A stretch of 50,294 nucleotides of DNA from an uncultured Eubacteriales bacterium (GTDB taxonomy: Bacteria > Bacillota > Clostridia > Oscillospirales > Oscillospiraceae): NCBI GenBank assembly GCA_900319695.1, contig ONPN01000016.1:1-50294 (forward strand), in the 5' to 3' direction. The position numbers and the translations under genes are program-made. The notes beneath the pieces are model-generated. The model made no database searches and was not told the origin of the DNA. It saw only the letters and a program-made list of their open reading frames with translations. Shown in pieces: positions 1 to 22,751 of this stretch (positions are counted from its first letter, which is position 1; each line of letters starts with the position of its first letter).

Positions 1-948
1 AACCGCATGGACGATCTGCCCTTCACCATCTACGCCTTCCTGATGGCCGACTACTTCACCGGCTCCTACGTCTGCCGCGGCTTCAGCCATGAGATGAGCC
101 TGAAGCTCCAGACCAAGTGCGAGGAAAACGGCGCGCAGTACGAGTTTAACCAGGAGGTCGAGAAGATCCTGGTCCGCGACGGCAAGGTCTACGGCGTCCG
201 CACCGCCCGCGGCGACGAGATCCACTGTGACTACGTCATCTCAGGCGCCTATCCCAACCGCGTCTACTCCCAGATGATCGAGCCGCTGAGCGAGGTGCCC
301 GAGGGCGCGATCCGCATGATCAATAACCGCAAGCTCTCCGTGGTCCCTGTGTCCGTCATCATGCTCATTGAGGGCAGCCCGGAGTCAAACGGCATCACCG
401 ACTACTCCACCTTCTCCGGCTCCACCATGGACACCAACAAGATCTGGGAGAACTACTCCAACATCACCGAGCCCTATAACTACATCACCACCATCTGCTT
501 AAACTATGCCAATCCCGGTCTGCCCAAGGACTACACCCAGCTCTCCATCACGGCTCTCGTCCCCTCCAAGCCCTTTGAGGGCGTCAAGGAGGAGGAGTAC
601 TTCGACCTCAAGCGCCGCCTCGCCTCCGAGATGATCGACGAGTGCATCAAGATCACCAAGGTCGACTTCCGCAAGCGCATCACCGAGATCGAGGTCACCA
701 CGCCCATGACCGTCTCCCACTATGTGGGCGCGTGGAAGGGCAACATCTACGGCTACCTCCACTCCATGGAGGATCACGCCGTGGCGAGACTGCAGATGAA
801 GGAGAAGGATCACTTCATCGAGGGCCTTGAGTTTGCCGGTGCGCACGGCATGTCCGGCGACGGCATGGGCCCGCAGATCACCAACGGCCGCGCCGCGGCC
901 AAGGCTGTCAAAGAGGACATCGAGAAGAAAAAGGAGGCGAGGAAATGA
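1..948 (+). CDS. NAD(P)/FAD-dependent oxidoreductase, phytoene-desaturase-like (C-terminal part)
   Basis: The reading frame is open to the left edge, so the N-terminal Rossmann FAD motif lies outside the window and only about 315 residues are visible. The visible part fits the amine-oxidase/CrtI-like flavoprotein superfamily. It has a domain of alternating strands around the VISGAYPNRV segment, and a C-terminal FAD-contact motif in which GAHGMSGDGMGPQITNGR is followed by AAAKAV. The C-terminus is a short Lys/Glu-rich tail. The stop overlaps the start of the next gene by four bases (ATGA), and that gene encodes a 2Fe-2S flavoreductase, so the two proteins probably form an electron-transfer pair. 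The substrate cannot be read from the sequence; a carotenoid role is not implied. The family assignment is reasonably secure and the reaction is unknown. Confidence 0.75.
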   Translation, partial: NRMDDLPFTIYAFLMADYFTGSYVCRGFSHEMSLKLQTKCEENGAQYEFNQEVEKILVRDGKVYGVRTARGDEIHCDYVISGAYPNRVYSQMIEPLSEVPEGAIRMINNRKLSVVPVSVIMLIEGSPESNGITDYSTFSGSTMDTNKIWENYSNITEPYNYITTICLNYANPGLPKDYTQLSITALVPSKPFEGVKEEEYFDLKRRLASEMIDECIKITKVDFRKRITEIEVTTPMTVSHYVGAWKGNIYGYLHSMEDHAVARLQMKEKDHFIEGLEFAGAHGMSGDGMGPQITNGRAAAKAVKEDIEKKKEARK

Positions 949-2138
949 GCAGCATCAAGGTCAAAGGCTTTCTGCAGGACGTAGGCGGCGCATCCCGCGT
1001 CGTCAAGCTCCGTGAGGAGAACTTCGCCAAGGGCTCTCCCATCCCCGATCCCAAGGACCCCATCCGCGAGCTTGCCGATCTCCTGCACCCCGAGCATATG
1101 CTCTTCAAGGTCGTGAGCATCCGTGAGGCGTCCCCCTCCTCCCGCGTCTTCCGTTTTGAGTCCGCCGACGGGCACATCCCCCCGTTCCAGAGCGGCCAGT
1201 ACGTGAACTTCCGCCTCAAGATCGGCGACAGCCTGCTGTCGAGACCCTATACCATCTCCTCCGCCCCCTTCGAGGCGAGAGGCGAGCACCCCTTCTTTGA
1301 GATCACCGTCCGCCGGAACGTGCCCTATCTCGTCCCCGATTACCTCTTTGAGAACGTGAAGATCGGCGACATCCTTGAGGGCGCGCTGCCCTTCGGCTTC
1401 TTCTACTGGGAGCCCCTGCGCGATTCCAGAGAGCTCGTGGCCCTGGCCGGCGGCTCGGGCATCACGCCGTTCCACTCCATGGCCAAGGAGATCGCCTACG
1501 GCAAGATGAAGGGCGTCAAGCTCACCATCCTCTACGGCTCCGTCAAGGCAAACGACATCGTCCTGAAAGACGAGCTCGCCAAAATCGAGGCCGACTGCCC
1601 CGATGTGAAGGTCGTCCACGTCCTCTCGGATGAGCCCGACTGGGAAGGGGAGAAGGGCTTCATCACCCGCGAGATCATCGAGAAGTATTCCACGCCCGAC
1701 TGCACCTACATGTTCTGCGGCCCCCTGCCGATGTTCCGCTTCGTCAAGAAGGCCCTGGACGACATGGGCGTGCCCGTGCGCCGCTTCCGCCATGACGTGG
1801 TCAACAACCCCGCCGACGTCTCCACCCTGCCGGGCTACCCCAAGGGCACCGAGACCAAGACCTTCAAGATCACGGTCGTGCGCGGCATCCACGAGGACGT
1901 CATTGACGCCAAGGCCAGCGAGCCCGTGGCCGTCGCCCTGGAGCGCGCCGCCATCCCCATCGACACCCACTGCCGCAACGGCGAGTGCGGCTTCTGCCGC
2001 AGCCACCTGCTCGAGGGCGAGATCTTTGTCTCCCCCGTGGGCGACGGCCGCCGCATGATGGACAAGGAGATGGGCTGGTTCCACGCCTGCTCCTCCTGGC
2101 CCCTCACGGACCTCAAAATCAAGATCCCCATCATGTGA
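945..2138 (+). CDS. Flavodoxin/ferredoxin reductase-type FAD protein with C-terminal 2Fe-2S ferredoxin domain
   Basis: This 397-residue protein has the order FAD domain, NAD(P) domain, plant-type ferredoxin domain. The FAD-binding RPYTISS motif is at residues 100-106, the NAD(P)-binding GGSGITPF at 169-176 and CGP at 258-260. The ferredoxin cysteines are C343, C348, C351 and C382 (CX4CX2C plus a distal Cys), so a 2Fe-2S cluster should form. About 50 residues precede the FAD domain. Proteins of this design pass electrons from NAD(P)H through FAD and the cluster to a partner. The ATG overlaps the upstream oxidoreductase stop (ATGA) and follows a strong AAGGAGG-type ribosome site inside that gene, so translation is coupled. 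It is likely the dedicated reductase of the upstream flavoprotein (inference). Confidence 0.85.
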   Translation: MSSIKVKGFLQDVGGASRVVKLREENFAKGSPIPDPKDPIRELADLLHPEHMLFKVVSIREASPSSRVFRFESADGHIPPFQSGQYVNFRLKIGDSLLSRPYTISSAPFEARGEHPFFEITVRRNVPYLVPDYLFENVKIGDILEGALPFGFFYWEPLRDSRELVALAGGSGITPFHSMAKEIAYGKMKGVKLTILYGSVKANDIVLKDELAKIEADCPDVKVVHVLSDEPDWEGEKGFITREIIEKYSTPDCTYMFCGPLPMFRFVKKALDDMGVPVRRFRHDVVNNPADVSTLPGYPKGTETKTFKITVVRGIHEDVIDAKASEPVAVALERAAIPIDTHCRNGECGFCRSHLLEGEIFVSPVGDGRRMMDKEMGWFHACSSWPLTDLKIKIPIM

Positions 2139-2159
2139 TCAAAAACGAGATAAACAGCC

Positions 2160-2196
2160 TTTGGGCGGATACGTACACGGTACGTATCCGCCCAAA
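2160..2196. terminator. Bidirectional hairpin terminator between convergent genes
   Basis: A perfect 17-bp stem (2160-2176 pairing with 2180-2196) with a 3-base loop sits between two convergent stops at 2138 and 2199. The rightward side lacks a good T tract, while the leftward transcript runs into T-rich sequence, so termination may be stronger for the minus-strand gene. Confidence 0.7.
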
Positions 2197-2198
2197 CA

Positions 2199-2870
2199 TT
2201 ACCACACACAGGGGATGATCCGGTATCTCACGCGGCGCTTGTAGTCAGCATAGCCCGCGAGACCCTGCTCCAGCACCTGCTCCTCGTTCCGTATGCGTTT
2301 GGCGATGATCGGGACATAGAGCAGCATGAGGAGAAAGGAATACAGCGAGCCCAGGATCAGCGGCATCGAGAGAAAGAGCAGCAGCGTGCTCATATACATC
2401 GGGTGGCGCACAAGGCCGTAGAGCCCTGTGTCGATAATCTTCTGCCCCTCCTGCACCTCGACCGTGCGGGAGAGCCAGACGTTTTCCCTCAAGACCTCCG
2501 CGTACAGTACATAGCCAAGCAGGAACACAAGCGCCGCCGCCCAGGAGACCGCGTCCGGCAGGATCAGCCAGCCGAAGCGCCAGTTCAGCCCGGCCAGGAC
2601 AAAGGCCGCGATGAACAGCAGCCCGCTCAGCGCGACGACGGTCCGCTGTTCGCCTTGTTCCTCCTTCGCGCTCAGCCGCTTTCGCAGAAGCTCCGGGCTC
2701 TTGAACAGCATCACAAAGCCCGCGGCCAGCATCGGCACAAACAGCACGCCCATCAGCAGCCACGCCTGCCGGTAATGAAGGCTTCCCGCCGGAAGAAAGA
2801 GCAGCAGCCCCACCAGCAGAATACCGCCCAGTACCTTGACCATCGCCTGCCTGAAAAGCTCCCGGTCCAT
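2199..2870 (-). CDS. Isoprenylcysteine carboxyl methyltransferase (ICMT)/PEMT-like membrane methyltransferase
   Basis: The product is a 223-residue polytopic membrane protein with about five hydrophobic segments. The C-terminal half carries the ICMT/phospholipid N-methyltransferase signature: G-L-Y-G-L-V-R-H-P-M-Y followed by a hydrophobic hairpin, then an E-E-Q-V-L-E-Q-G-L-type segment and a Y-A-D-Y-K-R-R-V-R-Y end. In this superfamily these residues form the SAM pocket. Bacterial members are often of unknown substrate, and prenylated proteins are not expected here, so a small lipid or isoprenoid acceptor is more plausible (inference). A GGGAGGG ribosome site lies six bases before the ATG. 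The gene stands alone between convergent and divergent neighbours. Confidence 0.8.
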   Translation of the reverse strand: MDRELFRQAMVKVLGGILLVGLLLFLPAGSLHYRQAWLLMGVLFVPMLAAGFVMLFKSPELLRKRLSAKEEQGEQRTVVALSGLLFIAAFVLAGLNWRFGWLILPDAVSWAAALVFLLGYVLYAEVLRENVWLSRTVEVQEGQKIIDTGLYGLVRHPMYMSTLLLFLSMPLILGSLYSFLLMLLYVPIIAKRIRNEEQVLEQGLAGYADYKRRVRYRIIPCVW

Positions 2871-3004
2871 ACGTTTCCCTCCCGCAATTCATTTCTGTAT
2901 AAGAGAGTATCACGCTCTTTCCGCGTACGCAAGCCCAACGTGCGCAAAAATCGAAAGGAAAGGCTCAACAAAAAAGCAGAGACAATTTTAACAAAAGAAG
3001 GGGC

Positions 3005-3033
3005 TTGATTTTATCGACAGTTTGGTATATATT
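3005..3033 (+). promoter_or_regulatory. Sigma-A-type promoter of the serine transporter operon
   Basis: TTGATT (3005-3010), 17-base spacer and TATATT (3028-3033). Transcription would begin near 3040 and give a leader of about 215 bases holding the long inverted repeat at 3070-3228. Confidence 0.6.
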
Positions 3034-3069
3034 ACAACATGCCGCGGGGAAACTCGCGGTAATATTTAC

Positions 3070-3228
3070 GGGGTTATACTATTCCCTGATAGAAAGTACA
3101 ATTAGATTTCCGAACAGAATTTGCGCCAGACAAGGCGCCTTCCGCAGAGCATAATGGAGATATATGGTCAAGGAAGGCAACGCAGTATGGCACAAATCTG
3201 TTTCTATTAGGGGATAGTATGAAACCCC
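3070..3228. repeat. MITE-like long nested hairpin in the serine operon leader
   Basis: The arms 3070-3095 and 3201-3228 are near-perfect inverted repeats (about 24 of 26 positions pair, with a 2-base bulge). Nested inside are a second stem (3115-3128 with 3188-3200) and a third (3137-3143 with 3172-3178), so nearly the whole 159 bases can fold as one rod. No ORF is inside. It could be a small non-autonomous mobile element, a leader RNA structure, or both. Confidence 0.6.
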
Positions 3229-3254
3229 AAAGAGAGAAAGAATAGGAGTCAGAC

Positions 3255-4454
3255 ATGAAAAAAGCAAAGATCGGTCTCGTCCCCAAACTCATTATCGCAA
3301 TCATTTTGGGTATCCTGATCGGACTGTACACCCCCCTGTGGTTCTGCCGCATCATCGTTACAGCGTCCAGCCTCTTCGGCACCTTCCTCAAGTTCGTCAT
3401 CCCCCTGCTGATCCTCGCCTTTGTCACCATGGGCATCGCGGATCTCAGCCAGGGCGCGGGCAAGCTGCTGCTTATCACGGTCGCCATCGCCTACGCCTCC
3501 ACTCTGATCGGCGGCACCTGTTCCTTTATCGTTTCCAGCAATCTCTTCCCCAGCTTCATGAATGCCGAGGCGCTTGAGAAGATCGCCGCCACCGCCGGCA
3601 ACAGTGTCGACAGCTACTTCTCCCTCGCCATTCCGCCCGTGCTCGACACGCTCTCCGCGGTCGTCCTGGCCTTCATTCTCGGCCTGTGCCTGTCCGCCAT
3701 GAAGGGCAAGACCATCGGCATGACCCTCTACAACGCCATGAAGGATTTCAGCGGCATCGTCGACGCCGTGCTCAACACGGTCATCGTCCCCCTGCTGCCC
3801 CTCTTCATCTGCGGTACCTTCGTTGACATGACCTACTCCGGCAAGACCTTCACCATCCTGAGCATCCTGTGGAAGGTCTTCCTCACCGTCATCGTCATGC
3901 ACCTGATCTTCATTGTGCTCCAGTTCCTGGTCGCCGGCTCTGTCAGCGGCAAGAACCCCTTCAAGCTCATCAAGAACCAGATCCCCGGCTACACCACCGC
4001 CCTGGGCACCCAGTCCTCCGCCGCCACCATCCCCGTCAACCTCCAGTGCGCCGAGGCCGACGGCGTGTGCGAGGAGATCCGCAACTTTGTGGTTCCCCTG
4101 TGCGCCAACATCCACATGTGCGGCTCCATGATCACCATCACCGCCTGCGCAACGGCCGTGTGCCTGATGAATCAGCTGCCCATCTCCCTCAGCACGGTCA
4201 TCCCCTTCATCATGACCCTCGGCGTCGCAATGGTCGCCTCGCCCGGTGCGCCCGGCGGCTCCATCATGACAGCCCTGCCCTTCCTGTACATGATCTTCGG
4301 CCAGGAGGCCGGTGATCCCAATGGCCCGATCTGCGCGATCATGGTCGCCCTCTACATCACGCAGGACTCCTTCGGCACCGCCTGCAACGTCTCCGGCGAC
4401 AACGCCATCGGCGTCATTGTCGACAAGATCTACAACAAGTGGATCAAGGCCTGA
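3255..4454 (+). CDS. Dicarboxylate/amino acid:cation symporter (DAACS), probable serine transporter
   Basis: The 399-residue product has the DAACS (glutamate/serine transporter) fold. It shows several membrane helices, a serine-rich first re-entrant loop (GTQSSAATIPVN, about residues 250-261), a second loop with SPGAPGGS, and the final-helix signature D-S-F-G-T-A-C-N-V-S-G-D-N, which in this family lines the Na+ and substrate sites. Length is normal. An AATAGGAG ribosome site precedes the ATG. The gene is followed after 21 bases by both subunits of L-serine dehydratase, so Na+-coupled serine uptake feeding deamination is the best reading. It is similar in outline to SstT but is not called sstT because substrate specificity cannot be read directly. 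Confidence 0.88.
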   Translation: MKKAKIGLVPKLIIAIILGILIGLYTPLWFCRIIVTASSLFGTFLKFVIPLLILAFVTMGIADLSQGAGKLLLITVAIAYASTLIGGTCSFIVSSNLFPSFMNAEALEKIAATAGNSVDSYFSLAIPPVLDTLSAVVLAFILGLCLSAMKGKTIGMTLYNAMKDFSGIVDAVLNTVIVPLLPLFICGTFVDMTYSGKTFTILSILWKVFLTVIVMHLIFIVLQFLVAGSVSGKNPFKLIKNQIPGYTTALGTQSSAATIPVNLQCAEADGVCEEIRNFVVPLCANIHMCGSMITITACATAVCLMNQLPISLSTVIPFIMTLGVAMVASPGAPGGSIMTALPFLYMIFGQEAGDPNGPICAIMVALYITQDSFGTACNVSGDNAIGVIVDKIYNKWIKA

Positions 4455-4475
4455 GTATTCTGCAAGGGAGTACCT

Positions 4476-5144
4476 ATGAACGTATTTGACATTATCGGCC
4501 CCGTGATGATCGGCCCGTCCAGCTCCCACACCGCGGGGGCCGTGCGCATCGGCCGCGTGGTCAACAAGCTGATGGACGGGCAGACCCCGGAAAAGCTGGA
4601 GATCGTCCTCTCCGGCTCCTTTGCCCAGACCTATCGCGGCCACGGCACGGACCGCGCTTTGCTGGCCGGGATCATGGGCTTTCGCAGCGACTCGGCGGAG
4701 ATCCGCGACGCGCTTGAGATCGCGAAGGAGCGCGGGATCAGCTACGAGTTTATCAAGAGGGACATCCCCGGCGCGCACCCCAACACCGCCCGCATCACCT
4801 ACACCCTGGCCGACGGCTCGACCGGCTCGGCCCAGGCGGCCAGCGTCGGCGGCGGCAACATCCGTGTCGACCTCATCAACGGCATGAAGGTGGATTTCAG
4901 CGGAGAGAGCAATACCCTGCTGGTCATGCACCTGGACCGCCCCGGCGTCATCGCCGCGGTCACGACTCTGATGCGCTGGGAGTACGCCGATCTGAACATC
5001 TGCAACTTCCATCTCTCGCGTGAGCAGCGCGGCGGCAACGCCATCATGACCATCGAGATCGACAACATGCCCCCGGAGACCCTGATCGAGGACGTGCGCA
5101 AGCTGGACCATGTCACCAACGCCATGCTGATCCGGCGGCTGTAA
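4476..5144 (+). CDS. sdaAB: L-serine ammonia-lyase, iron-sulfur dependent, beta subunit
   Basis: The 222-residue protein is the beta subunit of the two-subunit Firmicutes L-serine dehydratase, which converts L-serine to pyruvate and ammonia in the cytoplasm. The N-terminal signature GPSSSHTAGAVRIGR is at residues 11-25. A YRGHGTDRAL segment follows, and a C-terminal ACT domain (from about residue 148, LLVMHLDRPGVIAAVT) is expected to bind serine as an activator. It lies between the putative serine symporter and the alpha subunit, 16 bases before the latter, in one operon. Length and motifs are standard. Confidence 0.95.
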   Translation: MNVFDIIGPVMIGPSSSHTAGAVRIGRVVNKLMDGQTPEKLEIVLSGSFAQTYRGHGTDRALLAGIMGFRSDSAEIRDALEIAKERGISYEFIKRDIPGAHPNTARITYTLADGSTGSAQAASVGGGNIRVDLINGMKVDFSGESNTLLVMHLDRPGVIAAVTTLMRWEYADLNICNFHLSREQRGGNAIMTIEIDNMPPETLIEDVRKLDHVTNAMLIRRL

Positions 5145-5160
5145 GAGGGGAGGACGCAGT

Positions 5161-6042
5161 ATGCTGAAATATCAATCCATCCAGGAGCTCGTGAGCGCGG
5201 CCGAGGAGCGCGGCCTCAAGATCAGCGAGCTTGTCATGCTCGACCAGGCGGAGGCTATGGAGCAGACCCCCGAGGAGATTTACGAGCGCATGCGCAAGAG
5301 CTTTGAGGTCATGCGCGAATCCGTCGCGGAGGGCCAGAAGAAGGACCTGCGCTCCATGTCCGGCCTCACCGGAGGCGAGGGCTATCTGATGAAGCAATAC
5401 GCCGAGAGCACCAACGGCGGCCTCTGCGGTGATTTCCTGTCGAAGGCCATCGCCCGCGCCCTGGCCGTGGCGGGCTGCAACGCCGCCATGGGCCGCATCG
5501 TCGCCGCCCCGACGGCGGGAAGCTGCGGCATCCTGCCCGGCTGCCTCGTCTCCCTGTATGAGGATCGCGGTATCCCGGAGCGGGACATCGTCATGTCCAT
5601 CTTCACCGCCGGCGCCTTTGGCATGGTCATCGCGGCCAATTCCAGCATCGCGGGCGCCCAGGGCGGCTGCCAGGCCGAGTGCGGCAGCGCCGCCGGCATG
5701 GCGGCGGCCTCGCTGGTCGAGGTGATGGGCGGAACGCCCTCCCAGTGCGGCGACGCCTGCGCCATCGCAATTGCAAACCAGCTCGGCCTGGTCTGCGACC
5801 CTGTGGCGGGCCTCGTGGAGATCCCCTGCATCAAACGCAACGTCTCGGGCCTGATGATCGCCTTTTCCAGCGCGGACCTCGCCCTCGCGGGCGTGGGGCC
5901 GAAAATCCCCGTGGACGAGTGCGTCGACGCCATGCGTGAGGTCGGCAACGCCCTGCCCGCCGCTCTCAAGGAGACGGCGGGCGGCGGTCTCGCCACCACC
6001 CCGACGGGCGTTAAGCTGCGCAAGCAGGTCTTCGGAAAGTAA
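5161..6042 (+). CDS. sdaAA: L-serine ammonia-lyase, iron-sulfur dependent, alpha subunit
   Basis: This 293-residue subunit carries the oxygen-sensitive 4Fe-4S cluster that acts as the Lewis acid in serine dehydration. The PTAGSCGILPGC segment (about 117-128), GGCQAECGSAAG (168-179) and GLVCDPVAGLVEIPC (209-223) are conserved and contain the candidate cluster cysteines. It has a good GGGGAGGA ribosome site and is the last gene of the symporter-sdaAB-sdaAA operon, followed at once by a terminator. Pyruvate made here could enter the anaerobic metabolism to which ppdK (end of window) also belongs. Confidence 0.95.
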   Translation: MLKYQSIQELVSAAEERGLKISELVMLDQAEAMEQTPEEIYERMRKSFEVMRESVAEGQKKDLRSMSGLTGGEGYLMKQYAESTNGGLCGDFLSKAIARALAVAGCNAAMGRIVAAPTAGSCGILPGCLVSLYEDRGIPERDIVMSIFTAGAFGMVIAANSSIAGAQGGCQAECGSAAGMAAASLVEVMGGTPSQCGDACAIAIANQLGLVCDPVAGLVEIPCIKRNVSGLMIAFSSADLALAGVGPKIPVDECVDAMREVGNALPAALKETAGGGLATTPTGVKLRKQVFGK

Positions 6043-6061
6043 ATACAGACAGCAAAAACTA

Positions 6062-6097
6062 CCGCCCCGGGCTATTGCCCGGGGCGGCGTCTGTTTT
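6062..6097 (+). terminator. Intrinsic terminator of the serine operon
   Basis: An 11-bp GC-rich stem (6062-6072 with 6077-6087), a TATT loop and a trailing CTGTTTT tract, 20 bases after the sdaAA stop. Confidence 0.85.
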
Positions 6098-6121
6098 CAG
6101 TTCGGCGTGAGTAAGCGCGGC

Positions 6122-8227
<2,106 letters not shown>

Positions 8228-8335
8228 GTTGTTCCCTCCATTGTGAGTAAATAATATTCCGAAGTATAGACGCAGACGGCCAGGGGCTCCACGAGGTTGG
8301 ATTCCTGTATCTCCCTGCGACCAAATCATAATTTT

Positions 8336-8344
8336 AGTATAACA
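8336..8344 (-). promoter_or_regulatory. Extended -10 element for glgB
   Basis: Read on the minus strand this is TGTTATACT, an extended -10 with no clear -35. It would give a leader of about 100 bases before the glgB ATG. The same nonamer context (AGTATAACATGAAAT on the plus strand) recurs at 17156-17170. Confidence 0.4.
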
Positions 8345-8440
8345 TGAAATCCTGCGGATTGCTATAGGCAAGCGCCGTAAAAACGTCGAAATAAAATAGG
8401 ATTAACGCAGGCGTTTTCTCTCCCAACAGCGTCCGGCCGG

Positions 8441-8603
8441 TCATAACGGACTCAACACTCGCGTTAAACCCAAACCGGAGGACCCTCGTGGGTCCTCCGG
8501 TTTGGAAAGGAAGAAGGAGACTGTGGATGTGGAGCTTTCCCGGTGCTTACGCAAACCGGGGAAGCGGAACGGAACAGACTTCTTCTGACGTTGGTACGGA
8601 TGT
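8441..8603 (+). repeat. Tandem hairpin repeat, copy 1
   Basis: First of three tandem units of about 160 bases. It holds a perfect 16-bp stem (8470-8485 with 8490-8505) with loop TCGT, then an invariant purine-rich block (8506-8531), then a second stem of about 11 bp with one G-T pair (about 8534-8564). A GGAGG (8477-8481) lies six bases before a GTG at 8488 inside the stem. No known RNA family was recognised. Confidence 0.75.
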
Positions 8604-8761
8604 TCATAGCGAACGCGAACACCCGTTAAACCCAAACCGGAGGACCCTCATGGGTCCTCCGGTTTGGAAAGGAAGAAGACTGTGGATGTGGAGCTTTCCC
8701 GGCGCTTACGCAAACCGGGGAAGCGGAACGGAACAGGCTTCTTCTGATGCGGTACGAGTGT
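8604..8761 (+). repeat. Tandem hairpin repeat, copy 2
   Basis: The second unit has the same 16-bp stem (8632-8647 with 8652-8667) and loop TCAT. It is almost identical to copy 1 except for a 3-base deletion in the purine block, scattered changes after the second stem and a GTG-to-ATG change at 8650. Copies 1 and 2 share one open reading frame. Confidence 0.75.
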
Positions 8762-8870
8762 TCATAACAGACTTAAAAACTCCCGTTTAAACCAACTCGG
8801 AGGTCCCCCGTGAGACCTCCGAGTTGGAAAGGAAGAAGGAGACTGTGGATGTGCGGTTTCAAAACCGGCT
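8762..8870 (+). repeat. Tandem hairpin repeat, copy 3 (diverged, shortened)
   Basis: The third unit keeps a perfect 14-bp stem (8792-8805 with 8814-8827), but three base pairs differ from copies 1 and 2 and all three are compensated on the other arm. The purine block after the stem matches copy 1 exactly. The second hairpin is replaced by a shorter one (about 8854-8868). Confidence 0.75.
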
Positions 8871-8954
8871 TAGATAGTATACACCAGGAGGGACGCCAGC
8901 GCAAGAAAAACTTTTGGCAGCAGCGTATTTTGGCACATTCCGCGTGTTTGATGA

Positions 8955-8983
8955 TTGATGTTTTCCCTTGCTTGTGTTATCCT
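8955..8983 (+). promoter_or_regulatory. Probable promoter of the trmB-xth-dusB operon
   Basis: TTGATG (8955-8960), 17-base spacer and TATCCT (8978-8983), 24 bases before the chosen trmB start. The -10 match is moderate. Confidence 0.5.
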
Positions 8984-9007
8984 ATATTCTTAGGAGTGTG
9001 ATATTCT

Positions 9008-9754
9008 TTGAGAATGAGAAAAAGATCAAATCTGGACACGCGCATGGAGCGCTGTGCCGCTTTTTTGGATACAGAACCCGAAGCCCTGCGCGGCAAGTGG
9101 CGCGAGGTCTATCCCGGTCATGACCGACTGTACCTCGAGCTCGGCTGCGGCAAGGGCCGCTTTACCGCCGATACTGCCGAGACCATGCCCGATACCCTGT
9201 ACATTGCGCTCGAAAAGGTGCCGGACGCGATGATCCTCGCCATGGAGAAGATTGCCCGGCGCGGCCTTGAAAATGTGCGCTTCCTCGACGCAGACGCGAA
9301 AAACCTCGGCGAGATGTTCGCAAAAGACGAGGTCGACCGCATTTACATCAACTTCTGCGATCCCTGGCCCAAAAGCCGGGACGCAAAGCTGCGGCTGACC
9401 GCGCCGTCCTTCCTGCGCCTGTATGCCGACGTGCTGAAGGATGGCGGGCAGATCCATTTCAAAACCGACAATACCCCGCTTTTTGACTGGTCGATCGAGC
9501 AGTTTGAAGCCGAGGGCTGGCAGCTCTCCGAGGTCACACACGACCTGCACGAGCGCGGCCCCGTCGGCGTGATGACCGACTACGAGGCCAAGTTCTATGA
9601 GCAGGGCATGAAGATCAACCGCCTTGTCGCGACGAAGACGGCGGCTGCGAAGACCACTGCCGCGGGGCCTGTGCCGAGACTGCGCAACGCCTCGCTCACC
9701 GACGCGCGGGGCTATGAGGAGAGCCAGGAGGCAAACCGGAGGAACAACGCATGA
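9008..9754 (+). CDS. trmB: tRNA (guanine-N7-)-methyltransferase
   Basis: TrmB methylates G46 of tRNA using SAM. The 248-residue product has the SAM motif ELGCGKGRF, the family block [12 protein letters not shown] and a late FKTDN segment. The TTG at 9008 is preferred over the ATG at 9014 because it recreates the usual MRMRK beginning and is 11 bases from AGGAG (8992-8996), against 17 for the ATG; the choice is not certain. An Ala/Thr-rich C-terminal extension of about 40 residues is unusual for the family. The stop overlaps the next start (ATGA). Confidence 0.92.
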
Positions 9755-10506
9755 GATTTCTTTCCTGGAACGTAAACGGCCTGCGTGCTGTAAGAGGCAA
9801 GGGCTTTGAGGACATTTTCCTCTCCCTCGACGCGGACTTCTTCTGCCTGCAGGAGACCAAGCTCCAGGCGGGGCAGATCGACCTGAGCTTCCCCGGCTAT
9901 GAGAGCTATTGGTGCTATGCCGACAAAAAGGGCTATTCCGGCACGGCGATATTTACGAAGCATACGCCGCTGTCCGTTACTTATAATATCGGCGTGGAGG
10001 AGCACGACCATGAGGGCCGTGTCATCACGCTGGAATATGACAATTTCTACCTCGTCTGCGTCTACACCCCGAACGCGCAGGACGGGCTCAAGCGCATCGA
10101 CTACCGCATGCGCTGGGAGGACGATTTCCGCGCCTATCTCTGCAAGCTGGATGAGAAGAAGCCCGTCATTGTCTGCGGCGATATGAACGTGGCGCACAAC
10201 GAGATCGACCTGAAAAACCCCAAGCAGAATGTGGGCAACGCGGGCTTTTCCGATGAGGAGCGCGGCAAGTTCACCGAGCTTCTGGCCGCGGGCTTTACCG
10301 ACAGCTTCCGCTTTCTCTACCCCGACAAGACGGACGCCTACTCCTGGTGGAGCTACCGTATGCGCGCCAGAGAGCGCAACGTCGGCTGGCGTATCGACTA
10401 CTTTGTGGTGTCCGACCGCCTGCGCGAGAAGATCAGGGACGCCTATATTCTGCCCGAGATCATGGGCTCCGACCACTGCCCGGTGGGACTGGACGTCGCA
10501 TGGTAA
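9751..10506 (+). CDS. xth: Exodeoxyribonuclease III (AP endonuclease)
   Basis: The 251-residue protein belongs to the EEP nuclease family that cleaves DNA at abasic sites and degrades 3' ends. Visible motifs are SWNVNGLRA with the metal-site Asn, LQETK with the metal-binding Glu (E34), the YTPNA region, CGDMNVAH (Asp and Asn of the active site), and GSDHCPV containing the catalytic Asp-His. The length is typical. It is the middle gene of a three-gene operon, overlapping trmB by four bases and dusB by seven. Confidence 0.95.
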
Positions 10507-11471
10507 AGATCGGAGACGTTGAACTCAGGGGCAATCTGACCCTTGGCCCGATGGCGGGGGTGACGGACTTTGCCTTTCGCGGGGTGTGTCACCGGCTCGG
10601 CGCGGCCCTGACCACGACGGAGATGGTGTCCGCGAAGGCCCTGGTCTATCACGACGAGAAGACGAAGGAGCTCCTGTACATCCCGGATGACGAACACCCG
10701 AGCGCCGCGCAGATCTTCGGCCATGAGCCGGAGGTGATGGCGGAGGCGGCGGGGATGGCGCTGGAGATTTCCGGCGCGGACATGCTGGACATCAACATGG
10801 GCTGCCCCGTCGGAAAGATCGTGAAGGCCGGGGACGGCTCTGCGCTGATGAAAGACCCGGAGCTTGCCGCGCGCATTGTGGAGAGCGTCAAAAAGGCGGT
10901 GGACAAGCCCGTGACCGTGAAGTTCCGCAAGGGCTGGGACAACGGCAGCGCCAACGCCGTGGAGTTCGCCGGGCTCATGGAGCAGGCCGGAGCGGACGCG
11001 GTGGCCGTGCATGGTCGGACACGCGCGCAGATGTACGCGGGCCGCGCCGACTGGGACATGATCCGGGAGGTGCGCAGGGCGGTCAACATTCCCGTGATTG
11101 CAAACGGCGACGTCTTTACGCCGGAGGACGCGGCGCACATCCTGCGCTACACCGGCTGCGAGCTCGCCATGATCGGGCGCGGCAGCTTCGGCAATCCCTG
11201 GCTTTTCGAGCGGGGACAGGCCATGATCGAGGGGCGCGAGCTCCCGACCCTGCCGCCGCTTGCCGAACGCATCACCCTGGCCGAGACACAGATCGAGACC
11301 CTGGCCTCGCGCATCGGGGAGCGCCGTGCCTGCATGGAGGCGCGGCACCAGCTGCCATGGTATCTCCACGGCGTACCCCATTCCGGCGTGTACCGTCAGG
11401 AGCTCGTGCAGGTGAACACGCTGGAGGACATCCATAGAATCTGCAAAGGCATCAAAAGAGATTTGAAATAG
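10500..11471 (+). CDS. dusB: tRNA-dihydrouridine synthase (DusB type)
   Basis: This FMN enzyme reduces uridines in the tRNA D-loop with NADPH. The start at 10500 (323 residues) overlaps the xth stop by seven bases; the frame is open further upstream but that part is only the xth gene in another frame. Motifs in order: [19 protein letters not shown] with the catalytic Cys, [27 protein letters not shown] and [11 protein letters not shown], all part of the FMN-binding barrel. The C-terminal helical tRNA-binding domain is present. Assignment to DusB rather than another Dus subgroup rests on Firmicutes family usage. Confidence 0.92.
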
Positions 11472-11482
11472 GCACTATACTT

Positions 11483-11568
11483 GCCTCTCCCACTGGGGGC
11501 GGAGGGGGCCGCGCGAAGACCCTCTCAGTTACGGCGCTTGCGCGAGACGCGCCGTCGGAGGGGGAGCC
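11483..11568. repeat. Dispersed GC-rich intergenic repeat
   Basis: An 86-base GC-rich non-coding block begins with GCCTCTCCC and ends with GGAGGGGGAGCC, so its ends are imperfect inverted repeats, and an inner GGCGC...GCGCC stem is present. It resembles the short intergenic repeats common in gut Clostridia (recalled, not searched). It lies in the leader of the sigma factor gene. Confidence 0.45.
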
Positions 11569-11598
11569 ATGACCAATACTTAAAGGTGGTGATAGAGC

Positions 11599-12219
11599 TT
11601 GACAAGAGAACAGGAGGCCATGATTGTCCGCAAGGTCCTGCAGGGCGACGTCAACGCCTTTGAAAAGCTGGTCACGGAGTACGAGAAAGGCGTGTATGCC
11701 ATCGCGCTGCGCATGACCGGCAACCCCGAGGATGCCTCCGACATGACGCAGGAGGCGTTCATCAAGGCGTACAATTCCCTGCAATCCTTCCGCGGCGACA
11801 GCAAATTCTCCGTCTGGCTCTACCGCATCGCAAGCAACGTCTGCCTTGACTTCCTGCGCAGCCGGAGCCGAAAGCCGACGGTCTCGCTCTCGGTGGAGGA
11901 CGACGAGGGGGAGGAGACCCAGCTCGACGTCGCGGACGAGAGCCAGTCGCCCGAGCTGCTGCTGGAGCGCAGCCTCACGCGCGACGCGGTACAGAGAGGC
12001 CTGCAGTCCCTGGCGCCGGATTACCGGCAGATCCTGCTGCTGCGAGAGATACAGGGCCTGAGCTACGAGGAGATCGCCGACGTGCTGCAAATCGAGGTCG
12101 GTACGGTGAAATCCCGTATTTTCCGGGCGAGGAAAAGATTGTGCGCGTTTTTGGTGGAAGACGGGAACATTCCCGACTTTGCTTCGTCAGGTAGAATGAA
12201 AGGCGGTGAGAAGCAATGA
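11599..12219 (+). CDS. RNA polymerase sigma factor, sigma-70 ECF family
   Basis: The 206-residue protein has ECF region 2 (DASDMTQEAFIKAY for core binding, then the FSVWLYRIASNVCLD segment) and region 4 (GLSYEEIADVL followed by GTVKSRIFRARK, the -35-reading helix-turn-helix). The start is TTG, supported by an exceptional ribosome site, AAAGGTGGTGAT, ending five bases before it; no ATG is comparably placed. It overlaps the following anti-sigma gene by four bases, so the two should be made in fixed proportion. The pair resembles SigW/RsiW-type envelope-stress switches, but the regulon cannot be read here. Confidence 0.92.
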   Translation: MTREQEAMIVRKVLQGDVNAFEKLVTEYEKGVYAIALRMTGNPEDASDMTQEAFIKAYNSLQSFRGDSKFSVWLYRIASNVCLDFLRSRSRKPTVSLSVEDDEGEETQLDVADESQSPELLLERSLTRDAVQRGLQSLAPDYRQILLLREIQGLSYEEIADVLQIEVGTVKSRIFRARKRLCAFLVEDGNIPDFASSGRMKGGEKQ

Positions 12220-13955
12220 ATTCGTGTGACTACTATCAGGAGCTGATCAGCAGGCTCATCGACGGTGAAATCAGCCGGGAAGAGCATGAGGCCCTGATGG
12301 CGCATATGAACACTTGCTCCCGCTGCAACGCGATGTACGCGGTCTTTCACGACCTGTCCGATATTCTGTCCGAAGAGCCCGAGCCGCTGCCGGAGGGCCT
12401 GCATGAGAACATCATGGCAGGCGTCCGCCGCAGCGAGATCATCAAAAAGAACCGCCGTCTGCGCACGTTCGGCCTGCGCATGGCGCTGAGCGCAGCGGCC
12501 TGTGCCCTGCTGGTCCTGTTCGCGGCCAGCGGTTTCGGCCCCGGCAAACATGCAGAGGACGTCAGCCTCCGTACGCAGGAGGCTGCCGAGCAGCTCTATC
12601 AGGCCACGCAGGCGCCGACAGTGGAGAACTTGCCCGCGCCGACGGAGAATGTCTTTACTCTCTCCGTGCAGACAGCGGCCCCGACGCCCGTCTGGACGGC
12701 CCCGGCAGAGACACCCACAACGTATGCCTCCCCGGACGTCCGCCTCGCGGCGGGAAACAGCGTGAACGAGACCTATAACACCCTGCAGCCTGAACAATAC
12801 AATCCATATCAAGATGACCGTTATGCCGCCCAGGTGACGGCGCAGACGCCCGCCCCGGCACAGTACTATGAGCCCTACACCGCGGTACAAACGCCCGCTC
12901 CCACTGTGGTACAAACGCCCGCTCCCACTGTGGTACAGGCACCTGCTCCCGCTGTGGTACAGACACCCGAGCCTGAAGCGTTACAGGCACCCGCCCCGGC
13001 GGCGTTACAGGCGACCAATCCGGAAGCGCTGCAGATGTCCGCGCCGGTCGAAGCACAGACTTCTGTGGAGCCGCAAGCTCCGGCGTCTGTTCCGGAACAG
13101 AGCCTGACGTCTGTCCAGGAGCAGGTCACGGAACCCGCGGTGCTTGAAAACGCCGAAGTTCCCATGCTGAGAATGACAGCGCCCGCGCCTGCGGTCTCTC
13201 AGGACGAAGCGCTTGCTTCGGCGGAGATTGACGTTTCCGAGCCGGTCGTGGAGCTCGCTCCCTTCTCCATGAGAAGCAACACGCCTGAACTGCTCGAGAG
13301 CAAGACCTCCGTGCCGGAAGCGGGGGAGGATGTGAATCTCATGCTCTTCAGCGGGCTTGGCATCGGGCTTGCCTCCGACCAGCCGGATGAGGAGAAGGGT
13401 GAAACGATGGATGCGGAGAATGCAGTACAGCTCCGGAAACCGGCGGAGAGCGGCGTCCCCGAATTGAGGACTGCGAATCTGACGCCGGACGCCGCTGCGC
13501 CAATGCCGGAAGAGATCGAAGAGAAGATCGAAGAGAAGATCGAAGAGAAGATCGAAGAGAAGATCGAGGAACTTCCTGCCGCGACGCCGGAGAAGAAGGC
13601 CGAGGAGCACAACGCCAAAATCTACGGCAAGGGAGGGCGTGACAGACTGTTCGCCCTGCTGGGAGGCAGCGAGAGCGAGCTGCCCGCGGAGGCGGAGCTC
13701 ACGCGGGTGGTGCATGTCACACTCGTGCCGGACGACGCCTACGGCGGCGAGGAGAAAATGGACATCAGCATCTACGGTGATTTTGTCTATTACAGCCTCT
13801 ACCCCGCGGGGGGCGCAGCTAAAAGCTGCCGCGCGGCCTGCGCGCTCAGAGATCTGGACAGTCTCCTGAGAGAGCTTACGACCCAGAGCGCGACCGCTTC
13901 GGAACCTGCTCCGACGCCGACCATCGACCCATACGCCGTTGAAACGCAGAAGTGA
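12216..13955 (+). CDS. Zinc-finger anti-sigma factor with long repeat-rich extracellular region
   Basis: Residues 1-40 form a ZAS-type anti-sigma domain with Cys4, His30, Cys34 and Cys37 (HX3CX2C). One membrane helix follows at about 88-106, so the remaining 470 residues should be outside. That part is rich in Ala, Pro, Thr and Glu. It includes an eight-residue repeat (TPAPTVVQ-like, about 223-278) and EEKI repeats (about 432-451), and ends in a possible folded domain from about residue 465. A typical anti-sigma factor is 200-300 residues; this one is 579. The size and repeats suggest the outer region spans or senses the cell wall, probably with regulated proteolysis (inference). Confidence 0.88.
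   Translation: MNSCDYYQELISRLIDGEISREEHEALMAHMNTCSRCNAMYAVFHDLSDILSEEPEPLPEGLHENIMAGVRRSEIIKKNRRLRTFGLRMALSAAACALLVLFAASGFGPGKHAEDVSLRTQEAAEQLYQATQAPTVENLPAPTENVFTLSVQTAAPTPVWTAPAETPTTYASPDVRLAAGNSVNETYNTLQPEQYNPYQDDRYAAQVTAQTPAPAQYYEPYTAVQTPAPTVVQTPAPTVVQAPAPAVVQTPEPEALQAPAPAALQATNPEALQMSAPVEAQTSVEPQAPASVPEQSLTSVQEQVTEPAVLENAEVPMLRMTAPAPAVSQDEALASAEIDVSEPVVELAPFSMRSNTPELLESKTSVPEAGEDVNLMLFSGLGIGLASDQPDEEKGETMDAENAVQLRKPAESGVPELRTANLTPDAAAPMPEEIEEKIEEKIEEKIEEKIEELPAATPEKKAEEHNAKIYGKGGRDRLFALLGGSESELPAEAELTRVVHVTLVPDDAYGGEEKMDISIYGDFVYYSLYPAGGAAKSCRAACALRDLDSLLRELTTQSATASEPAPTPTIDPYAVETQK
12882..13049 (+). repeat. 24-bp tandem repeat inside the anti-sigma gene
   Basis: About seven 24-bp units beginning GNGGTACA or GCGTTACAG encode the eight-residue repeat. 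The first two units are nearly identical; later ones drift. Being in-frame, slippage would change only protein length. Confidence 0.8.
13509..13568 (+). repeat. 12-bp tandem repeat encoding EEKI
   Basis: Five 12-bp units (GAGAAGATCGAA), of which three internal copies are identical, encode a Glu/Lys/Ile helix. The identity of the copies marks a recent or slippage-prone expansion. Confidence 0.85.
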
Positions 13956-13960
13956 AAAAT

Positions 13961-14004
13961 GTGCGGCAGACCCGTGCCTTTGAACCGGGTCTGCCGCACT
14001 GTGT
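13961..14004 (+). terminator. Terminator of the sigma/anti-sigma operon
   Basis: A perfect 14-bp stem (13961-13974 with 13986-13999) six bases after the stop, followed by TGTGTTT. Confidence 0.8.
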
Positions 14005-20187: not shown

Positions 20188-20268
20188 CGCACTACAGAAA
20201 TATACAAGAAGATCGGCTAAGACATTGCCCTTGCCCAGCGGCTCTGACACCACAGCAGCGCGGCGGTC
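20188..20268 (+). pseudogene. Decayed tyrosine-integrase C-terminal remnant
   Basis: Read on the plus strand this gives TTEIYKKIG-stop-DIALAQRL-stop-HHSSAAV. It is clearly related to ATEIYRKNGYDIALVQRLLQHSSAAV of the integrase fragment at 22071-22526, but with two in-frame stops and in the opposite orientation. It runs directly into the duplicated attachment block at 20267. Confidence 0.75.
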
Positions 20269-20502
20269 ATTACAGGCAATAAACAGGAGGGGTTTCATAC
20301 CCGATCGTCGAATGCGGTGGTGTGTCGTGACGGCACGGCTCACCGCACGGCGTGCTTTCTCTTGAGGCTGAGATTGTCAGCGATCATCGCGATGAATTCG
20401 CTATTCGTCGGTTTTCCCTTGATGCCGCTGACGGTGTAGCCGAAGTAGCGCTGGAGGGTCTCGACGTCGCCGCGGTCCCAGGCGACCTCAATGGCGTGGC
20501 GG
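20267..20502. repeat. Attachment-site duplicate, left copy (attL-like)
   Basis: 236 bases are about 94% identical to 22514-22751 in the same orientation, with about 13 substitutions and a 2-base indel. The block covers the last 53 codons of spo0A and about 75 bases downstream. It marks the left edge of an inserted island. Confidence 0.8.
20340..20502 (-). pseudogene. Displaced 3' end of spo0A
   Basis: Encodes [20 protein letters not shown] through KHAVR-stop, identical in protein to the last 53 residues of the intact Spo0A although about 10 bases differ, all silent. There is no start or receiver domain. The fragment most likely derives from a second functional spo0A allele and was left when an element integrated. 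Confidence 0.85.
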
Positions 20503-20991
20503 GCTATCGCCCTTCTGGGGGGCGGATGGCTTGGCTCTTTTGCGGGCGGCTTTTCTCTATGAGAGTGAAATGATTTATCGGCTTGTTCATTGGCTTCACG
20601 GCCTCTGTTCATTGCCTTGCTCTAATGATAGCAAAAGTAAAGAGGAAAGACAAGGCCAGCAATCCAATGAACACAGCATTATTTTTTTCCGCCAGCTTTG
20701 AGGATTATTAAGGCCAGTCTCACGGAGGAACGAAGCATAGCGGGACTGTCCCAGGAATCCGCGAGGCTGGCCTTTATGACCGTTTAAGAGCATTCTTGAA
20801 CATCTTTGAGCATCTACGAACATCTTATAGCGTGATGGAGAGACTTTGAACATCTCTCCATCATCTTTTTACATCTTGTATTGAAAATACACTTTCAAAA
20901 GCAAAGCACGCCCGCCGCGCTGGGGATGGAGCGCTTTGCTCAGTCGTTGCCGTTTTTGATGAAAAAGTTATGAAATGCAGCAAATTAGGAA
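20503..20991. other. Gene-free left part of the inserted island
   Basis: No supported gene is present. The stretch holds an imperfect hairpin (AAGGCCAG at about 20711 with CTGGCCTT near 20776) enclosing GGGAC-T-GTCCC, several GAACATCT words (20795-20855), and a terminator-like hairpin with T tract at 20836-20872 that resembles the one at 20114. It looks like accumulated debris of insertions. Confidence 0.5.
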
Positions 20992-21020
20992 TTGCGATTG
21001 TAGTAATCCTATGGTAATAT
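20992..21020 (+). promoter_or_regulatory. Promoter of the HTH-lipoprotein operon
   Basis: TTGCGA (20992-20997), 17-base spacer, TAATAT (21015-21020). Transcription would start at about 21027, exactly where the long hairpin begins. Confidence 0.6.
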
Positions 21021-21026
21021 AAGGGT

Positions 21027-21135
21027 GCTACACAAATCAAATAATGCAATTCAGGCAAGGAGCGTGTTTTTACTTCGGTAAAAACGCACTCTCCATTTTG
21101 GCGTTCCTTGTTGAATTGCTAAAGATTTGTGTAGC
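21027..21135 (+). ncRNA. Structured leader or small RNA with UUCG-capped long hairpin
   Basis: Nearly all 109 bases pair. The outer 12-bp stem is 21027-21038 with 21124-21135. Next come an 8-bp GCAATTCA/TGAATTGC stem and a GCAAGGAGCG/CGTTCCTTGT stem with wobble pairs. The inner GTTTTTAC-TTCG-GTAAAAAC stem is closed by a C(UUCG)G tetraloop, typical of stable RNA. It begins at the predicted transcription start and lies 85 bases before the HTH gene. No Rfam family was recognised. Confidence 0.55.
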
Positions 21136-21219
21136 AGCAAACGGAGCTCTGCGTTTTTCGTGCGTGGTTCCGTTTGGGGCTGCGCACTTTTTTATTATCA
21201 AAAAGAAGGGAGAGAGAAA

Positions 21220-21399
21220 ATGGCTGACACAATGGGAACAAAGGAAGCGTCAGAATTATGGGGCATACCACAAGCAACAATTGCGACGTTATGTAGACAA
21301 GGGAAAATACAAGGTGCTGAACAGTTCAAAAAGGGAAGCCCTTGGCAAATCCCTAAAAATGCTAAGCGCCCCGATGTTAAAGTGAGGAAAAGGAAATGA
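21220..21399 (+). CDS. Small helix-turn-helix protein, excisionase-like
   Basis: The 59-residue protein (start chosen at 21220 after GGGAG; the frame is open upstream without similarity) has the pattern GTKEASELWGIPQATIATLC, followed by RQGKIQGAEQFKKGSPWQIP. This matches the short MerR/excisionase-like HTH_17 fold used by Xis proteins and small regulators. It overlaps the lipoprotein gene by four bases (ATGA). Its place beside integrase remnants suggests an excision or regulatory role for the element; a role as regulator of the lipoprotein is equally possible. Confidence 0.75.
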   Translation: MADTMGTKEASELWGIPQATIATLCRQGKIQGAEQFKKGSPWQIPKNAKRPDVKVRKRK

Positions 21400-22061
21400 A
21401 AAAAGGAATTAGCATCTTTTCAAATTTTAAAAAGAAACTATACGTGATTATCCTACTTCTTTCGTGCTGCTCATTTCTAACTGCTTGTGAGAATAATGAA
21501 AATACTACAGCAATCGTTGGATATGTTGACGTTTCTGATTTAGGCCGTGGTGATATTTATGCTTGTTCTATAAACGACAAAGATAAAGTAATGCTTGACT
21601 ATTATGAAGTGGTTTTTTACAAAACTGGTGAAGATGCTATTTATCATCACGACCAGTATGAAGGGGTAAATATTTCTGGATATAAATATAGTGAAGATAA
21701 GAAAACTATTACGACATATTCAATGGAAAATAAAGAAAAAATTAAAAAAGACAAGCCAAGTTACACATACACTTTAATTGAGACCAACAGTAGAGACCGC
21801 TATAATCACACGAAGAAGGATGTTATTAAAGTCACTGAGGATTACATTAAGTCAACTGTTTCTTCCATGTCAGATATTACCTTTGAGAAAGATAAATATA
21901 CTGTTTATGCGTTTGATAATACTTGGCTTGTTATTGGCGTATATAATGCTATGCCTAACGCTGGAGAACTGAATAAATATTGGTATTATCTAACTGTTAA
22001 TTATTCAAACGACAGTAATTATAAGGTAGATATGGAATTTTGGGGCGAACTTTCAACATAA
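21396..22061 (+). CDS. Predicted lipoprotein of unknown function, AT-rich
   Basis: The 221-residue product has a lysine-rich N-terminus, a hydrophobic stretch (about 15-29) and a lipobox FLTA-C with the lipidated Cys at residue 31, so it should be anchored on the outer face of the membrane. The mature part is rich in Asn, Lys, Tyr and Asp. No family was recognised. Base composition (clearly AT-rich, with AT-ending codons) is unlike all neighbours and marks it as transferred. It is translationally coupled to the HTH gene and lies between the two spo0A 3'-end copies. Confidence 0.8.
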   Translation: MKKGISIFSNFKKKLYVIILLLSCCSFLTACENNENTTAIVGYVDVSDLGRGDIYACSINDKDKVMLDYYEVVFYKTGEDAIYHHDQYEGVNISGYKYSEDKKTITTYSMENKEKIKKDKPSYTYTLIETNSRDRYNHTKKDVIKVTEDYIKSTVSSMSDITFEKDKYTVYAFDNTWLVIGVYNAMPNAGELNKYWYYLTVNYSNDSNYKVDMEFWGELST

Positions 22062-22070
22062 AAGAAGACA

Positions 22071-22526
22071 CTATATCAACTCCGCGTGGCCCTCTATCGC
22101 CCTCTCTATCCGCTGTGGCTCTATACCGATATATCTTTGCGTCACGGCGGCGGAGCTGTGCTGTAGAAGCCGCTGGACAAGGGCAATGTCATAGCCGTTT
22201 TTCCTGTAAATTTCTGTCGCATACCATTTCCGAAAGCTATGTGTGCTGATACCCTCATAGCCCAAGTAATCGCAGACAAGGGCAAGTTGTTTCTGTATTG
22301 CCCTCGTGGTCAGAGGAAACATCAACTCATTACGCCTTATCCCATTGCGCAGGCAAAAGATTTCAATATATTGATAGATAACAAGGGGAACAGTGAAAAC
22401 GCGCTGTTTCCCTGTTTTCTGTTCTGTGATGGCAAGTCTGGTTCTTCTGCTGTCGCTGACTAAGGTAATCAAAATTGGTGTTGAACATACAAAACCCCTC
22501 CTGTTCATTGCTTTCATTACAGGCAA
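22071..22526 (-). pseudogene. Truncated tyrosine recombinase/phage integrase (catalytic C-terminus)
   Basis: The 151-residue frame has the C-terminal catalytic residues of tyrosine recombinases: a Lys in EQKTGK (34-40), H96-X2-R99 in THSFRK, H123 in LLQHSS and the nucleophile Y132 in RYIG. The first catalytic Arg and the N-terminal core-binding domain are missing. The first 20 or so residues come from the spo0A-downstream sequence and have no family match, so the gene is 5'-truncated at the island edge and probably inactive. An active internally started protein is unlikely. Confidence 0.8.
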
Positions 22527-22542
22527 TAAACAGGAGGGGTTT
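22491..22542 (-). terminator. Hairpin downstream of spo0A
   Basis: 19-base arms (22492-22510 with 22524-22542) pair at 18 positions and are followed on the minus strand by GGGGTTTTGT. It probably terminates spo0A. One arm lies inside the duplicated attachment block and the other outside it, so the stem was completed by the insertion. Confidence 0.55.
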
Positions 22543-22751
22543 CATACCCGATTGTCGAATGCGGTGGTGTGTGCTGTGACGGCAAGGCTCACCTTACGGC
22601 GTGCTTTCTCTTGAGGCTGAGATTGTCAGCAATCATCGCGATAAACTCGCTATTCGTCGGTTTTCCCTTGATGCCGCTGACGGTGTAGCCGAAGTATCTT
22701 TGCAGGGTCTCGACGTCGCCGCGATCCCAGGCGACCTCGATGGCGTGGCGG
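22514..22751. repeat. Attachment-site duplicate, right copy (attR-like)
   Basis: The partner of 20267-20502, covering the 3' end of the intact spo0A and the sequence just after its stop. The gene is restored on this side, as expected when an integrase uses the 3' end of a gene as target. Confidence 0.8.

Follow-up and report, generated by a model that had tools for sequence, protein, structure and literature searches.

A relic element at the 3' end of spo0A points to an attachment site for conventional tyrosine integrases in Clostridia and relatives

Why should the last codons of spo0A be present twice at the same locus, in the same orientation and about 2.2 kb apart? The window analysed here, which is the whole stretch of 50,294 nucleotides from contig ONPN01000016.1 of an uncultured bacterium of the Eubacteriales, holds a spo0A gene for which a domain search of the window returned Spo0A_C (E = 3.6e-46) and Response_reg (PF00072), and a second, displaced copy of the 3' end of this gene (Table 1). 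The two att copies match each other with an E-value of 1.2e-98 in a search within the genome and have a start-to-start spacing of 2247-2249 nt. Each consists of the codons for Spo0A residues 211-263, encoding the same 53 residues in both, and about 75 nt of 3' flank. The repeat of a 236-base block described in the initial annotation is thereby borne out, with one correction, in that the "about 13" differing bases are 14 substitutions and a 2-nt indel.

Eleven of these substitutions lie in the coding part and none of them changes an amino acid, as had been noted. The chance that a substitution is silent here is 0.27, and when 11 substitutions were drawn at random, none of 60,000 trials gave an all-silent outcome. 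Since all 11 coding differences are silent, the pattern fits two tails that were each under selection and does not fit the decay of an idle duplicate, which agrees with the earlier proposal that the copies come from two separately evolving functional spo0A genes and not from a recent local duplication. The spo0A gene of the window is open and complete with the island inserted, and is restored in frame to the same protein.

Table 1. Features at the duplicated spo0A 3' end, in positions of the window
Feature	Position	Strand	Basis or remark
Older scar: degenerate piece of a small recombinase (residues ~139-165) with half of a hairpin attached	20191..20266	+	shared with the G105 empty site
Distal att copy, 236 nt: displaced 3' end of spo0A (codons 211-263) with flank	20267..20502	-	downstream side runs into flank common to the G105 empty site
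Island distal arm, attP arm with CCRATAAA-like repeats	20503..21009	.	within 956 nt that are 86.5% like L081; repeats by eye
Structured leader RNA, terminator-like hairpin at its end	21010..21189	+	conserved in related loci; no Rfam match
HTH ORF, 59 aa, excisionase-like	21220..21399	+	PF12728, phrog_2655
Cargo ORF, 221 aa, lipoprotein-like (by eye)	21396..22061	+	domain and family searches, no family found
C-terminal part of a small tyrosine recombinase of 187 aa (residues 55-187 remain), truncated at the 5' end	22074..22472	-	sequence comparison with relatives
Start of the spo0A-specific integrase, 8 codons (MFNTNFDY), remainder deleted	22465..22488	-	putative, short; overlaps the small-recombinase fragment by 8 nt, junction inexact
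Hairpin behind spo0A, immediately preceding the integrase start codon	22490..22545	-	arms 22492-22511 and 22523-22542; similar arrangements in relatives (by eye)
Gene-proximal att copy, 238 nt: functional spo0A from codon 211 to 263, with 3' flank	22514..22751	-	
Intact spo0A, 263 aa	22589..23380	-	PF08769 and PF00072 domain matches
Family-wide alternative crossover, KPTNSEF, codons 240-246	22643-22663 / 20394-20414	-	putative
Crossover interval best fitting the window lineage, codons 215-219	22725..22738; partner 20476-20489	-	putative

When the 3' flank was used as a DNA query against 102 genomes of the genus, four had matches: the window's own genome, G105, G106, and G076 with a weak match of 26 nt. 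In G105, bases 1-10979 align to window positions 33882-22510 in five blocks that are 91-97.5% identical, with small unaligned gaps, and bases 10738-13984 align to window positions 20502-17220 at 92%. This genome has the att block only once, with the same flanks and without the island, and thus represents an empty site of the kind that the initial annotation had suggested looking for in sister strains. It follows that about 2.25 kb were either gained in the lineage of the window or lost in G105. The initial annotation had also named the opposite case, sister genomes that have the double arrangement and no empty site; one part of it is seen in the draft genome G106, which has the double arrangement of the window, but the empty site in G105 contradicts the case as a whole. 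In the G106 draft, spo0A is out of frame at the att region, which is an exception among the loci.

The single block of G105 shares states with both window copies. Among the 16 differing columns, it equals the left (distal) copy at nine and the right (gene-proximal) copy at seven, being right-like at column 13, left-like at 28-106, right-like at 109, left-like at 121 and 157, and right-like at 158-199 except 177. Simple excision from the present window would predict right-like states upstream and left-like states downstream, and the order in G105 is largely the opposite. Overall, G105 is about equally distant from the two copies (90.8 and 91.7% identity), so the imported tail cannot be told by identity. 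That the downstream end of the left copy is the old one is shown by the flank, which continues there as in G105.

The DNA between the copies (positions 20503-22490) has a G+C content of 0.41 as compared to 0.60 for the window, and the island, a low-G+C relic of 2.2 kb, is unable to move on its own. Domain and phage-family searches of the window island found no structural or packaging genes of phages. The leader RNA has a z-score of -6.4, with changes on both sides in 11 of its 30 predicted pairs, and the search of Rfam gave three matches, all under the gathering scores. We also considered an integron-like cassette array, which was set aside, the structured RNA being present once in its own genome and in no more than two full-length copies per fetched locus (L089). 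To the left of the left copy lies the scar of a small recombinase, joined to half of a hairpin and found also in G105, which indicates that the spo0A site had been visited before.

Two recombinases appear to have left traces next to the gene-proximal copy, and the question is which of them targets spo0A. The eight codons that follow spo0A, MFNTNFDY, correspond to MLNTDFDW and MTNTGFDW in relatives and appear, from this sequence comparison, to be the start of a conventional tyrosine integrase; these eight codons and the layout suggest that the relic belongs with the elements of such integrases. A search of the window's genome, which is estimated to be 79% complete, found no intact relative of this integrase at E 1e-30. 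In G033, a conventional tyrosine integrase of 330 aa with a SAM-like N-terminal domain lies directly after spo0A, and a spo0A 3' fragment is found about 11 kb further on. The first interpretation of the island is refined in this respect: the responsible enzyme appears to be nearly deleted, and the visible fragment comes from the other, small recombinase. The reading that this small 187-aa protein, and not the conventional integrase, targets spo0A would agree with the position of its fragment beside the att copy, and spo0A or a spo0A fragment is present in the fetched stretch of 7 of the 68 loci of its relatives. However, in these seven loci (L040, L070, L076, L077, L080, L081, L087) the small-recombinase copies are truncated or broken, none of the 34 full-length copies has spo0A in the fetched stretch, and 29 of these 34 have an inverted-repeat core of their own upstream. 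Furthermore, in G096 it is the conventional integrase that sits at spo0A, and the intact small recombinase of that element lies about 9 kb away. We therefore rejected the small recombinase as the spo0A integrase, its link to spo0A in the fetched stretches being confined to truncated or broken copies, and regard this reading as very unlikely.

The conventional integrase was searched for in four samples, in which some genomes occur more than once: 102 genomes of the genus (E up to 1e-30), 394 of the order (1e-50), 391 of the class (1e-70) and 398 of the phylum (1e-70). It was identified in three, two, six (with seven copies) and one of these genomes, respectively, giving 13 copies in 12 genomes of six families. 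The use of spo0A as a target is thus sparse, yet spread over at least six families. In 10 of the 13 cases the integrase lies directly behind a complete spo0A gene (G033, G012, G096, G442, G360, the first copy of G850, G752, G866, G657 and G903) and in two the preceding sequence is a spo0A 3' fragment (G845, where the contig starts, and the second copy of G850), while the remaining copy, in G816, is cut by the contig end. Integrases of about 25% identity are located elsewhere than spo0A.

Of the 12 carrier genomes, 7 (G033, G096, G012, G360, G866, G845 and G850) have a further spo0A 3' end on the same strand; many of the genomes compared are drafts. G850 contains two elements in tandem, the second integrase being located behind the second spo0A fragment, 31 kb away. 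No distal copy was found in the 60-kb stretches of G752, G657 and G903, nor in G442, where the contig starts 10.6 kb away, and the ten-residue spo0A match at the other contig end of G816 (E = 0.15) is only suggestive. A candidate for a split spo0A in G845 (C1:692748) was rejected, as it is another Spo0A-like gene. For comparison, none of eight integrase-free loci of the genus (L103, L104, L108, L110-L114) has a second copy; L104, L108 and L112 span only 3-4 kb downstream of spo0A and the other five at least 9 kb. These eight controls were taken from 14 stretches by omitting the carriers L105 and L115, two G031 contigs ending in the block (L106, L107), the second spo0A-like gene of G034 (L109) and L116, which has no spo0A. 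Likewise, searches of the whole control genomes gave one match in seven of the eight and two in G034, the second of which is the other full-length gene.

At least two of the elements carry phage genes, with portal and terminase genes and a capsid-like gene in the G866 element and tail genes on the G816 contig. The elements in G033 and G096 contain restriction-modification genes and WYL regulators, and no relaxase or conjugation genes were seen in the 40 element ORFs scanned, out of 80 ORFs listed in seven elements. Viral scans with one genus-level integrase as query gave no matches; a search of IMG/VR with an alignment of 11 integrase sequences (A4) retrieved 29 records with the integrase. The spo0A 3' end is located upstream of the integrase in all eight records with at least 240 bp of sequence there. 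L190 has only the last spo0A codons upstream, as read by eye, and L193 a Spo0A-like gene of about 35% identity. With the ends read against the contig ranges, a spo0A tail is present in 16 of the 29 records, beside the integrase in seven and at the far end in ten, one record having both; ten records thus have the integrase at one end and a spo0A tail towards the other. The other 13 records are without a spo0A tail and may be trimmed. In L199 and L200 the spo0A fragment is embedded in other DNA, like an attP in viral contigs, and the tail in L200 would end Spo0A early. Neither excision nor a circular form was observed for any element. Elements that end in a spo0A 3' fragment, which the initial annotation had advised searching for, are hence found both in relatives and in viral records. 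A phage collection gave 15 integrase matches of 24-32% identity, and none at 1e-30 with the G752 relative as query. As a separate observation, spo0A tails are present in 14 unannotated faecal phage records, which may be bacterial DNA.

We propose, with a probability of about 0.93, that a clade of conventional tyrosine integrases uses the 3' end of spo0A as its attachment site in the chromosome and that the window holds a relic of such an element. The integrases, of about 325-335 aa, would belong to temperate phages and to phage-like or defence islands in Clostridia and relatives. The element would have, in its own attachment site, a copy of roughly the final 20-53 spo0A codons. Upon integration, with strand exchange probably performed by the conventional integrase, the 5' part of the host gene would be joined to the tail of the element, such that spo0A is restored and the old tail is pushed to the far end. 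The element in the window would since have shrunk to its present 2.2 kb. The G105 empty site and the other spo0A-tailed elements also support the history first suggested from the window, in which an element with a foreign spo0A 3' end integrated and restored the gene.

The start of the homology is at codon 211 in the window, at about codons 210-211 in G033 and G096, at about 227 in G012 and at about 239-240 in G850 and the viral record G1251. The start thus varies between elements from codon 211 to about 240, and there are two putative crossover intervals. The private states of the window copies fit one in codons 215-219, provided that some subsequent drift of the left copy is granted. The minimum over the whole family indicates codons 240-246 (KPTNSEF), and the lineages may differ in this respect. 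In nine proximal/distal pairs, the base differences downstream of the KPTN motif are 45 silent versus 2 replacing, and those upstream of the motif 18 versus 4. The last stretch of G866 has 12 base differences and no amino-acid change, and the G845 pair has no differences. From the silent excess over the pairs, the elements seem to keep a working spo0A tail, and the phage-supplied tail hardly changes the predicted protein in the pairs examined.

That the spo0A 3' end was duplicated locally long ago, without any integrative element, would be in line with the double arrangement in G106 and with the 3' flank of about 75 nt that both window copies have in common. It is contradicted by the empty site in G105, by the low-G+C DNA between the copies, by the integrases linked to spo0A and the viral records that carry this tail, and by the silence of all 11 coding differences, and we consider it extremely unlikely. 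Another thought is that the island is an intervening element that keeps spo0A inactive while inserted and restores it on excision, much like the phage-like elements that interrupt sigK, spsM and yabG according to PMC10747680. The early end that the L200 tail would give to Spo0A could be taken in the same sense, but the window gene is restored in frame to the same protein, and the other proximal and distal tails encode nearly the same residues, with the out-of-frame G106 draft as the exception. We find this explanation highly improbable.

Within the proposed attachment-site reading, we lean towards a history of two successive integrations, in which the left copy is the tail of an earlier element and the right copy that of a later one; this is a refinement and not an alternative. 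The two window copies share the 3' flank and half of the hairpin, unlike in G033 and G012, where the homology of the pair stops at or just before the stop codon. The small-recombinase scar in the left flank and in G105 and the tandem elements in G850 point in the same direction, although the older element is known just from its scar. A bolder and rather doubtful hypothesis is that a temperate-phage clade, class-wide and with one case elsewhere in the phylum, has settled at spo0A, such that every lysogen would sporulate with a phage-encoded C-terminal piece of Spo0A. Some of these phages, with tails like that in L200, might then restore the gene imperfectly, and sporulation would require that the phage is absent or excised.

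Phage 21 and the element e14 integrate in the icd gene of E. coli, where an alternative coding 3' end with mostly silent differences restores the gene. The spo0A elements likewise bring an alternative coding 3' end and restore the gene, but their target is the master regulator of sporulation, their hosts are Clostridia and relatives, and their integrase clade extends over six families. Genomic islands of the SGI1 type attach at the 3' end of trmE (PMC8409611), which is likewise the end of a protein-coding gene; target and hosts are different, and at least two of the spo0A elements carry phage genes. According to PMC10747680, skin and yin are phage-like elements in the sporulation genes sigK and yabG, which resembles the situation at spo0A except that they interrupt the gene whereas spo0A is restored. 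In the literature searched, mostly at the level of titles and the beginnings of abstracts, spo0A is not named as an attachment site (including PMC6907783, PMC11222575, PMC5027557, PMC10747680, PMC10538166, PMC11318856, PMC10072058 and PMC8894767). The mechanism, integration at a 3' end with restoration of the gene, is thus known, and spo0A appears to be a new target.

How gut Clostridia spread from host to host is governed by sporulation, for which Spo0A is the switch. If a family of phages exchanges the coding 3' end of this gene whenever it integrates, lysogeny would be coupled directly to sporulation, and a spo0A tail beside an integrase could serve as a marker for finding such phages. In PMC6907783, PF08769, the Spo0A C terminus, is reported to be enriched in mobile elements of gut Firmicutes and is discussed together with niche-adaptive sporulation genes. 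Some of these published PF08769 matches in mobile elements may be attachment-site tails.

The element's own attachment site carries a copy of the spo0A tail, and in one viral record from IMG/VR (L200) this copy would not fully restore the gene. The L200 tail reads NSEFIAIFN around its point of divergence and then ends in a stop codon, so that integration of an element with such a tail would, judging from the sequence, leave Spo0A about a dozen residues shorter. The spo0A gene of genome G106 lacks a stretch of the attachment region, which represents either real damage or an error in the MAG. A paralogue of Spo0A may also serve as an integration target, as suggested by the gene order in another IMG/VR record, L193.

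Features in the window and in the compared loci
Feature	Location	Strand	Remarks
Structured leader RNA	window 21010-21189	+	terminator-like end; covariation support
78-nt repeat	window 8454-8853		three tandem copies, each with an inverted repeat; spacing ~160 nt
attP-like spo0A fragment	L200, ~9778-9870		tail diverges beyond ~codon 249
spo0A of G106	L216/L081, ~1354		~50 nt missing at the attachment region (codons 215-231); out of frame
Spo0A-like gene	L193, 13-354		~35% identical to Spo0A; related integrase behind
Example of the 187-aa recombinase gene	L033:3839-4399

Inspected by eye, the spo0A 3' flanks at L104 (genome G022) and at L040 resemble those of the integrase-bearing elements. No conventional integrase of the spo0A type was seen at either locus, and these flanks are likely to be scars of past integrations. 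Several contigs end in or near the attachment block (L106/L107 from G031, L150 and L174 from G816), as is expected where the block is repeated.

The small tyrosine recombinases of 187 amino acids (L033-L061 and others) form a family without an N-terminal domain. An inverted-repeat core resembling GTTCGTATAA-N8-ATACGAAC is located about 115 bp upstream in 29 of the 34 full-length copies, and was not found at the same threshold upstream of the gene in L063, L069, L071, L074 and L098. Other copies have an intact 3' end and are truncated at varied points from the 5' end.

The small recombinase gene faces the structured leader RNA, downstream of which the cargo genes vary. The RNA is also present in L035, L048, L051, L066, L070, L077, L079-L083, L085, L087, L089 and L090, as well as in L054, L058, L060 and L113, which are additional matches to the model built from 17 sequences. 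It had no match in Rfam above the gathering score. A -10-like promoter element was read by eye at the leader RNA.
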